The notes under the pieces: generated by a model | What the model saw: only the letters and a program-made list of their open reading frames with translations | What the model was told of the DNA's origin: nothing | Databases searched by the model: none | Translations under genes and position numbers: made by a program | Origin: Capsulimonas corticalis | Lineage (GTDB): Bacteria; Armatimonadota; Armatimonadia; Armatimonadales; Capsulimonadaceae | Reading direction: 5' to 3' | NCBI RefSeq assembly: GCF_003574315.2 | Contig: NZ_AP025739.1 | Span: forward strand, 7,564,001-7,628,000 | Length of the DNA: 64,000 nucleotides | Shown here: positions 57,560-60,746 of the stretch, piece after piece | Numbering within the stretch: position 1 is the first letter of the stretch | Layout of the letters: each line of letters begins with the position of its first letter

Positions 57560-57589
57560 AAAAAAGCCCGCGCCAAATGAGGCGCGGGC
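57560..57589 (-). terminator. Rho-independent terminator after the first GH5 gene
   Basis: On the minus strand GCCCGCGCC pairs with GGCGCGGGC around a six-base loop and is followed by six Ts. It lies 32 bases after the GH5 stop at 57622. Confidence 0.9.
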
Positions 57590-58720: not shown

Positions 58721-58733
58721 GAAACAGAGTTTC
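58721..58733. promoter_or_regulatory. Operator-like palindrome of the first GH5 gene
   Basis: GAAAC-AGA-GTTTC lies about nine bases downstream of the -10 hexamer. The same core (GAAAC-N3-GTTTC) lies ten bases past the -10 of the other GH5 gene. Confidence 0.6.
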
Positions 58734-58741
58734 CAAGTACA

Positions 58742-58770
58742 AATATAGCATACCTCCGTTCATCTGTCAA
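58742..58770 (-). promoter_or_regulatory. Promoter of the first GH5 gene
   Basis: On the minus strand TTGACA (58765-58770) and TATATT (58742-58747) are 17 bases apart. Transcription would start near 58735, giving a leader of about 100 bases with a GGCGAT/ATCGCC hairpin. Confidence 0.75.
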
Positions 58771-58809
58771 TCAATTATTTCCCTCAGCAAGTAAATTCTC
58801 CCGCTCCTG

Positions 58810-60435
58810 CTAATTCGCCGGAATGAAGCGCCACTGCTGCTGGCAGCCGCCTCCGCCCCAGCTCCACAGGATCACTCGCGTTCCGTCGGCGCCGGAGCAC
58901 CCATTGCCGTCCAGAACGTCGTACGAGCCGTCGGATTTCGCCTGAGCCGTGCTGATGGAATAGGCTCCGCCCCCAGTCGGGTTAATGCGCCACGCCTGGC
59001 AGGGGCCGCCCCAGTAGTCCCAGAGTTCGAGCTGGGTTCCATCGCCGGGCGAACAGCCAGTGCAGTCGAGCGAGCGGCCGACACTGCCGTCGGGGTTGAT
59101 GGTGCGGATGGCGTATGTGCCGTCGCCATTGCCGTGAACGCTCCAGCGCTGGCTGTTCGTGTTCCAGGAGCCCCAGAGCTGAACGATCGTCCCATTCGTG
59201 TTGGCGGTATTGTAGCAGTCCAGCACGTCGCCGGTGGTCTGGGCCGCGATCTTATAGGTTCCGTCCGAGAGAGTTTGCGACGCGCCGGAGCCGATCAGCG
59301 GAGCGAGCAGCGGCTGGAGCACGCTCTGCTTGTTTGTATTGACCGTGTTCCAGTCGTCCTGAAGAATGCCGCCGGTGTCGCCCGAGTTGGGATTCCAGCA
59401 CCAATAGGTAAAGCTGAGCTGATTGGCGGCGATGTAGCTGGCGATGGAGGAGAACCACTGCTGATCCGACGTCGTTTGATCCAGCGTTCCGAATTCGCCG
59501 ATCCACACCGGCGCGATGTTTTGCTTGGCGATATATCCCCAATGCTTGTCCCAGACACCAGGCAGATTGCTCGGATAGCTGGGATCGCTGAACCAGGGCT
59601 GCGAGCCGACGGTGCTGGGATAGTCATGCACGGAGTAGACAAGCTGGTTCGCGACATTCAGCTGCACCGGAGCCGACGCCACGCCTTCCAGGTTGCCGCC
59701 CCACCAGTAGCCATCTCCATTGAACTGTTCGATCCCTTCCACAAAGATCAGCAAATGCGGATTGATCGCCTGGATCGCGTCGCCGCACCGCTGCGCCGCC
59801 AATCGCCAATCCGTGGTTTGACTGCCGTCGCCCCATGTCGATGGGCTGTGCGGCTCATTGTGCAGATCGCAGCCGATCACCGTGTCGTTGCCGTGATATC
59901 GGCCGGCGAGCATCTGCCAGTCGCTGATCCAGCGCTGCTCGGAATACTGGCTGGTGTACCAGAGCGCGGACTGCGCGTTCGAGTCCGGCCGATGCCGATC
60001 CAGAATGACCTTGAGACCCCGCGCCTGACAGTCGGCGATCAGCTTGTCTAAAATTTGGATCGGCGTCAGCCCCTGCAAGTCCGGGTTCTGTCCGAAGTCG
60101 ATCCCATTGGGCGCGCTGCCGGCGTCAAACATCTGACTGCAAAACGGCACGCGCAGCGTATTATATCCCAGTCCCTTGATCTGATCCAGCATGGACGACA
60201 TCGACCGCGCCCAAAGCCCATGGGGACAGTAGTTGGTGGTCTCAAAGCCAAACCAGTTGATGCCGGTGATCCGAACAGCGTTGCCCTGAGAATCCAGGAT
60301 CCGGGCTCCGCTGGTGTGCAGATAATTCTGCGCATGGGCGGCGGGAGAGCCCAGAATAGCAATTCCAGCGATAGCAACGACAGGCAATAGACCCGAGCGG
60401 AGCTTACGTGACGGAGGGAGGTGAGTGAGCATCAT
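58810..60435 (-). CDS. Secreted GH5 endoglucanase-like enzyme with ricin-B lectin domain
   Basis: 541 aa from the first of two ATGs (60435), after AAAGGA. A signal peptide (LLPVVAIAGIAILGSPAAHA) precedes a GH5 barrel: ITGINWFGFETTNYCPHGLW, NTLRVPFCSQMF, the acid/base in VIGCDLHNEPHSP and the nucleophile in APVWIGEFGTLDQ. Residues about 410-541 form a ricin-type beta-trefoil (YKIAAQTTGDVLDCYNTANTNGTIVQLWGSWNTNSQRW and two further repeats with QxW motifs) that should bind sugars. It likely attacks cellulose or a related beta-glucan. Confidence 0.92.
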   Translation of the reverse strand: MMLTHLPPSRKLRSGLLPVVAIAGIAILGSPAAHAQNYLHTSGARILDSQGNAVRITGINWFGFETTNYCPHGLWARSMSSMLDQIKGLGYNTLRVPFCSQMFDAGSAPNGIDFGQNPDLQGLTPIQILDKLIADCQARGLKVILDRHRPDSNAQSALWYTSQYSEQRWISDWQMLAGRYHGNDTVIGCDLHNEPHSPSTWGDGSQTTDWRLAAQRCGDAIQAINPHLLIFVEGIEQFNGDGYWWGGNLEGVASAPVQLNVANQLVYSVHDYPSTVGSQPWFSDPSYPSNLPGVWDKHWGYIAKQNIAPVWIGEFGTLDQTTSDQQWFSSIASYIAANQLSFTYWCWNPNSGDTGGILQDDWNTVNTNKQSVLQPLLAPLIGSGASQTLSDGTYKIAAQTTGDVLDCYNTANTNGTIVQLWGSWNTNSQRWSVHGNGDGTYAIRTINPDGSVGRSLDCTGCSPGDGTQLELWDYWGGPCQAWRINPTGGGAYSISTAQAKSDGSYDVLDGNGCSGADGTRVILWSWGGGGCQQQWRFIPAN

Positions 60436-60484
60436 TGTTCCTTTCACGGAGCGGGAGAGATCAAGATCGCAATAGTCTCAACAA

Positions 60485-60505
60485 ATCAGAAACTGTGTTT
60501 CTGAT
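60485..60505. promoter_or_regulatory. Operator-like palindrome of the second GH5 gene
   Basis: Nine-base arms ATCAGAAAC and GTTTCTGAT are perfectly complementary around a three-base centre. It starts about ten bases downstream of the -10. The inner core GAAAC-N3-GTTTC is shared with 58721-58733. Confidence 0.65.
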
Positions 60506-60514
60506 CACTTTCCC

Positions 60515-60543
60515 ATTATAGTGATCGATGGGGCATCCGTCAA
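60515..60543 (-). promoter_or_regulatory. Promoter of the second GH5 gene
   Basis: On the minus strand TTGACG (60538-60543) and TATAAT (60515-60520) are 17 bases apart. An additional repeat GATCAC-N12-GTGATC flanks the -10. Confidence 0.8.
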
Positions 60544-60570
60544 CAAGCAAGCGCGGTGGGTTATTGATCA

Positions 60571-60716
60571 CCGGGCAATGAATTACCCGGCTGGGGGCGC
60601 TTCGCGCCGACCGTCCGTACCGGACGGAAGAGATAAGAAACGCAAGCGATCACACTCTTCCGTCCGGTACGGACGGTCGGCGCGAAGCGCCCCCAGCCCC
60701 GTATTTCAATGCGGGG
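60571..60716. repeat. Dispersed hairpin element, family 2
   Basis: Two exact 44-bp inverted arms (60589-60632 and 60655-60698) enclose a 22-base loop. Each arm contains inner hairpins GGCGCttcGCGCC and CCGTCC-N5-GGACGG. At the two ends are small terminal hairpins with related loops, CCGGG-N10-CCCGG (60571-60590) and CCCCG-N10-CGGGG (60697-60716), whose loops both read CAWTGAAWTA on one strand. Stem bases differ between the ends but keep pairing. The architecture resembles family 1 but the sequence differs. No coding capacity. Confidence 0.85.
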
Positions 60717-60746
60717 TCAAAAAAGCCCTCGTCCCCCTATGAATCG

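Follow-up and report, generated by a model that had tools for sequence, protein, structure and literature searches.

What purpose is served by a palindrome of the form GAAAC-N3-GTTTC that recurs in the leaders of two neighboring genes of Capsulimonas corticalis (genome G000), and which regulator might read it? The two genes, hereafter GHa and GHb, are tandem neighbors on the minus strand of the window (the whole 64,000-nt stretch of DNA analyzed here), with GHa lying 177 bp downstream of GHb, and in both leaders the palindrome is exact and placed past an 11/12 sigma-70 promoter (Table 1). The original prediction was correct in assigning strong TTGAC(A/G)-17 promoters to both genes and palindromes of 13 and 21 bp (the second perfect over its full length), but it described the leaders as unlinked, which their tandem arrangement contradicts, and the geometry as identical, when it is merely similar (8 nt from the -10 to the palindrome core in GHa, 13 nt in GHb, or 9 nt to the extended GHb palindrome). 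Nothing besides these promoter and operator signals can be aligned between the two leaders, hence the shared element was not simply copied along with a recently duplicated leader. Just upstream of the GHb promoter lies a 63-nt inverted repeat (60570-60717, 90% complementary, 22-nt loop), which may be a small mobile element, a REP-like sequence or a bidirectional terminator.

Both genes had been taken for GH5 enzymes, an assignment that is confirmed for GHb only: when PF00150 (GH5) was tested on both, only GHb matched (E=3.4e-56). GHb additionally matches RicinB_lectin_2 (E=1.3e-18) and PDB 1ece (E=4.5e-142), and likely starts at an ATG near 60435. GHa has no match in Pfam or PDB, none above cut-off in NCBIfam and none in a search of plasmids; its NE and GEYG motifs resemble clan-A catalytic residues, and its only match (23%) is a further secreted G000 protein, likewise devoid of a Pfam hit. 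A GHa structure model built without an alignment (pLDDT 37) was too poor for use.

Table 1. Features of the window locus, candidate regulators and putative targets (window positions for the first seven rows, G000 positions thereafter).
Feature	Position	Strand	Details
GHa, secreted protein, 336 aa	57622..58632	-	ORF; clan GH-A-like motifs DLMNECNY, FMGEYGPN
GHa operator copy (candidate), GAAACTCTGTTTC as read on the - strand	58721..58733		8 nt past -10
GHa promoter, TTGACA-17-TATATT, TG preceding -10	58742..58770	-	11/12 sigma-70 score
GHb, GH5 endoglucanase (A. cellulolyticus E1-like) with C-terminal ricin-B beta-trefoil	58810..60447	-	Pfam, PDB
GHb operator copy (candidate), perfect 21-bp palindrome ATCAGAAAC-N3-GTTTCTGAT	60485..60505		core 60489-60501
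GHb promoter, TTGACG-17-TATAAT	60515..60543	-	11/12 sigma-70 score
Terminator-like hairpin after GHa	57566..57589	-	9 GC pairs, then TTTTTT
LacI-1, LacI-family protein	292423-293478	-	PF00356 E=1.1e-16, PF13377 E=1.4e-35
LacI-1 promoter, near-exact copy			AAAAC-N3-GTTTT
LacI-2	293735-294805	+	exact copy in promoter/leader; gene start about 293735
GHa and GHb, exact copies	window		promoter/leader
SASA-type esterase, exact copy	3872182		promoter/leader
Ricin-B protein beside GH26, GH43 and GDSL-esterase genes, exact copy	3884027		promoter/leader
DUF1559 prepilin-type genes, exact copies	6823901 and 7632818		promoter/leader
GH43-ricin-B gene, near-exact copy	6047204		13 nt past -10 of TTGACA-17-TAGAAT
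GH92 gene, near-exact copy			3 nt past -10 of TTGACG-17-TATGAT
DUF1559 gene, near-exact copy	2541753-2542568		copy 348 bp upstream
DUF1559 gene, near-exact copy	282007

Judging from sequence, we consider it likely that a local LacI-family repressor, LacI-1, uses the palindrome as its operator and governs carbohydrate enzymes, DUF1559 genes and lacI-1 itself. LacI-1 carries the N-terminal helix-turn-helix and C-terminal periplasmic-binding-protein-like domain of its family. We found 56 LacI genes in G000 and read 55, among which an exact copy occurs in a single upstream region (the LacI-1/LacI-2 intergenic DNA) and the recognition helix SVGTASK is present in LacI-1 only. The palindrome stands at the regulator's promoter as well as at those of its putative targets, the LacI-1 copy being imperfect in G000 and of the form GAAAC-N3-GTTTY in its orthologs.

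These orthologs (46-48% identity, in G010, an order-mate of C. corticalis, and in G007 and G025) carry the palindrome once or twice in the stretch from the -10 to the start of lacI: two GAAACATAGTTTT in G010, GAAACATAGTTTT and GAAACAAAGTTTT in G007, and GAAACTAAGTTTC in G025. The spacing is also similar, the copy lying 3 nt past TAGAAT in G000 and the first copy 3-4 nt past it in G007 and G010. A DUF1559 gene directly follows lacI in two of the three orthologs (after 14 bp in G010 and 52 bp in G025), and G007 has a copy ahead of a DUF1559 gene at another locus; the closest relative of the G010 operon pilin among 63 sampled G000 DUF1559 proteins adjoins the copy at 2542917. For the other test proposed beforehand, conservation upstream of orthologous genes, a search of 60 relatives yielded no ortholog of the GH genes similar enough for footprinting, and those distant GHb orthologs that were inspected have no motif close to the gene start; it is rather the promoter of the regulator itself, together with DUF1559 genes, that shows conservation (gene starts were assigned by eye or ORF, and the relatives are mostly fragmented assemblies). 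LacI paralogs at 42% identity or less likewise lack the motif near their starts. Counting against LacI-1 are the imperfection of its own G000 copy and a second G010 homolog (L307), which has the same helix and hinge but no copy.

Two further observations concern LacI and DUF1559 genes. A decayed copy of LacI-1 at 283.3-283.7 kb (L198:10360-10780) retains the C-terminal third, with 82% identity across residues 240-350; its reading frame continues from an upstream segment rich in Cys and His that is similar to a UBP-type zinc finger. The adjoining DUF1559 gene has one full and one near-full operator-like copy upstream. More broadly, the genome has at least 150 DUF1559 matches, and 27 of the 56 LacI genes have one within 2.5 kb, as compared with 4.9 expected at random places (5000 draws, maximum 15); the LacI-DUF1559 pairing seems to be a general theme of G000.

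The recognition helix offers a further link between protein and palindrome. Across LacI relatives taken from the phylum and GTDB genomes (other phyla included), GAAAC-N1..3-GTTTC with at most one mismatch lies upstream of 16 of 31 proteins with an SVGTxSK helix and of 10 of 99 others (P=3e-6; as the species sampled lack independence, this and the P values below serve as a guide only). This bears on whether LacI-2, rather than LacI-1, binds the operator, which we regard as unlikely. In favor of LacI-2 stands a 33-bp palindrome that shares the core and surpasses every other copy in length and perfection, placed 47 bp ahead of the gene start, and LacI-family regulators often control their own genes (72%; PMC4052901). 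However, the LacI-2 helix, SPATVSR, falls outside the GAAAC-associated class, no motif occurs upstream of its homologs in relatives (L219-L225, 41-45% identity) or of its paralog at 4332653 (58%), and the copy before LacI-2 is equally readable as LacI-1 acting on its divergent neighbor.

Is the palindrome commoner than chance would allow? The 7.645-Mb genome contains 16 exact copies, while eight other spacers sum to 54 (mean 6.75; Poisson P=0.0017), and dinucleotide shuffles predict 0.02 for the window. Seven of the 16 lie in promoter or leader DNA and nine inside genes, the latter being probably background. A promoter scoring at least 11/12 is found within 45 bp of 4/16 N3 copies and 0/43 other-spacer copies (P=0.004), and a location that is both non-coding and A+T-rich is shared by 6/16 and 0/43, respectively (P=0.0002). 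One-mismatch sites and four-letter arms were surveyed in 1.47 Mb (19% of the genome); there AAAC-N3-GTTT had a promoter of at least 10/12 close by in 9/43 cases, compared with 8/133 for eight control palindromes, figures that are indicative since this sample was partly picked for motif matches. The 14 copies compared have a 3-bp, mostly A/T centre. At members other than GHa and GHb, the position varies from inside the -35/-10 spacer (the copy at 7633786, near a GntR/LacI-type regulator that was also considered as a candidate) to 24 nt past the -10.

That the promoter copies are nonetheless chance palindromes in A+T-rich promoter DNA strikes us as improbable. The intragenic copies do look random, and the relaxed pattern WNAAACNNNGTTTNW is genome-wide no commoner than its reversed control (29 vs 32), but the control palindromes above are seldom at promoters, and copies at LacI-1 ortholog promoters in three lineages would be unexpected by chance. 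Random distribution over the genome, named beforehand as speaking against a regulon, probably describes the intragenic copies and not the promoter-located subset. Counting against the LacI-1 reading, the exact motif is no commoner than its reversed control in the genomes of close family relatives. As a separate observation, GAAACNNNGTTTC is strongly over-represented in G015 (44 vs 6 for the reversed control) and G018 (15 vs 2), two genomes of one genus.

We think it very improbable that the palindromes serve as 5'-leader RNA hairpins (3-nt loop) stabilizing mRNA rather than as protein operators, for although clear hairpins form at two copies (GHb, -10.0 kcal/mol; SASA esterase, z=-2.1), those of GHa and the ricin-B gene show no folding advantage over shuffled sequence (z=0.3 and -0.2), the 7633786 copy sits within the -35/-10 spacer and is untranscribed, enrichment is confined to the 3-bp spacer, and the AAAC letters are invariant in all 28 listed half-sites.

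Returning to LacI-1 as the probable regulator, a dimer would read two GAAAC half-sites flanking the 3-bp A/T-rich centre. Sitting on the start site past the -10, or between -35 and -10 in the case of 7633786, it would obstruct RNA polymerase until a putative sugar-type ligand of the periplasmic-binding-protein-like domain released it. Release would then switch on the secreted carbohydrate-active enzymes, the DUF1559 prepilin-type genes and, by autoregulation, lacI-1. The common repressor originally proposed is well supported, with a promoter-associated motif at several unlinked loci that footprinting ties to one LacI-family regulator. Of nine promoter-linked targets, five have a Pfam domain connected with carbohydrates (GH, esterase or ricin-B), compared with none of 20 arbitrary genes (P=0.001); the term "cellulolytic regulon" is too narrow for a set that takes in GH92, GH43, a SASA esterase, a ricin-B lectin protein, several DUF1559 prepilin-type genes and two LacI genes.

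The LacI protein encoded beside the GH26 cluster was considered as the regulator and rejected, given that its divergent promoter bears TGCAAA-type repeats instead of the GAAAC palindrome. In this LacI/GH26 intergenic DNA (G000 3881.4-3881.8 kb; L022:2521-2939), repeated TGCAAA/TTTGCA-type half-sites surround TTGACA-TATAAT and are probably a separate operator of the GH26-cluster LacI.

The odd centre of the palindrome sets it apart from most operators of the LacI family. A survey of that family (Ravcheev et al, 2014; PMC4052901) found even palindromes for 1251 of 1303 regulators and a central CG for 1173, odd operators being known and rare (4%); in place of this canonical form, the copies compared here have a 3-bp, mostly A/T centre. 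Operator letters have been linked to helix-turn-helix residues 15, 16 and 20, and the central CG to hinge alanine 51 and leucine 54 (PMC2978694). The hinge of LacI-1 and four orthologs reads PNALI(R/C)SLQ, with Ile replacing the usual Ala in all five, while the alanine is kept in 114 of 137 LacI relatives; LacI-1, lacking it, fits a non-CG 3-bp centre. Within the SVGTxSK class, the N3 form accompanies 4/5 non-Ala hinges and 0/26 Ala hinges (P=2e-4), a link to be taken as a lead and not as proof because the four cases come from about two lineages, and one of them (L405) is also readable with a 2-bp centre. We tentatively suggest that a LacI clade of Armatimonadota and some Thermomicrobiales may have lost both the hinge alanine and the central CG, so as to read GAAAC over a free 3-bp centre, and that in Armatimonadota it may co-regulate DUF1559 prepilin-type proteins and extracellular enzymes acting on polysaccharides, which would suggest a concerted action of pilus-like fibres and glycan degradation.

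Among the papers available for searching, none described a LacI regulon of Armatimonadota, and LacI-1 with its palindrome provides a concrete candidate regulator-operator pair for a phylum rich in glycoside hydrolases. It also provides a natural test case for how the LacI hinge helix sets the operator centre, and a functional link for DUF1559 prepilin-type proteins, which are found near LacI genes far above expectation.

Among known systems, the proposed scheme is that of the local sugar repressors of the LacI family (PMC4052901), with a regulator combining helix-turn-helix and periplasmic-binding-like domains, a palindrome near the start, autoregulation and carbohydrate targets; the difference lies in the odd operator with its free A/T-rich 3-bp centre. 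PtxS of Pseudomonas (PMC3402500) is similar in its GAAAC half-site, LacI-family membership and autoregulation, but its operator, TGAAACCGGTTTCA, has a 2-bp CG centre that the 3-bp centre of the window operators does not match, and its targets are 2-ketogluconate genes rather than extracellular polysaccharide enzymes. In actinobacteria, CelR (Thermobifida fusca) and CelR-like cellulase regulators (PMC3377646) likewise belong to the LacI family and control secreted glycoside hydrolases, acting at copies of a single dispersed palindrome. Their sites (e.g., TGGGA(A/T)CG(A/T)TCCCA, TGAGAGCGCTCTCA) have another half-site and a CG centre, such that GAAAC-N3-GTTTC in the window departs from the TGGGA-N4-TCCCA kind, and whereas the usual neighbor of CelR is a cellobiose ABC transporter, that of the LacI-1 type is a DUF1559 prepilin-type gene.
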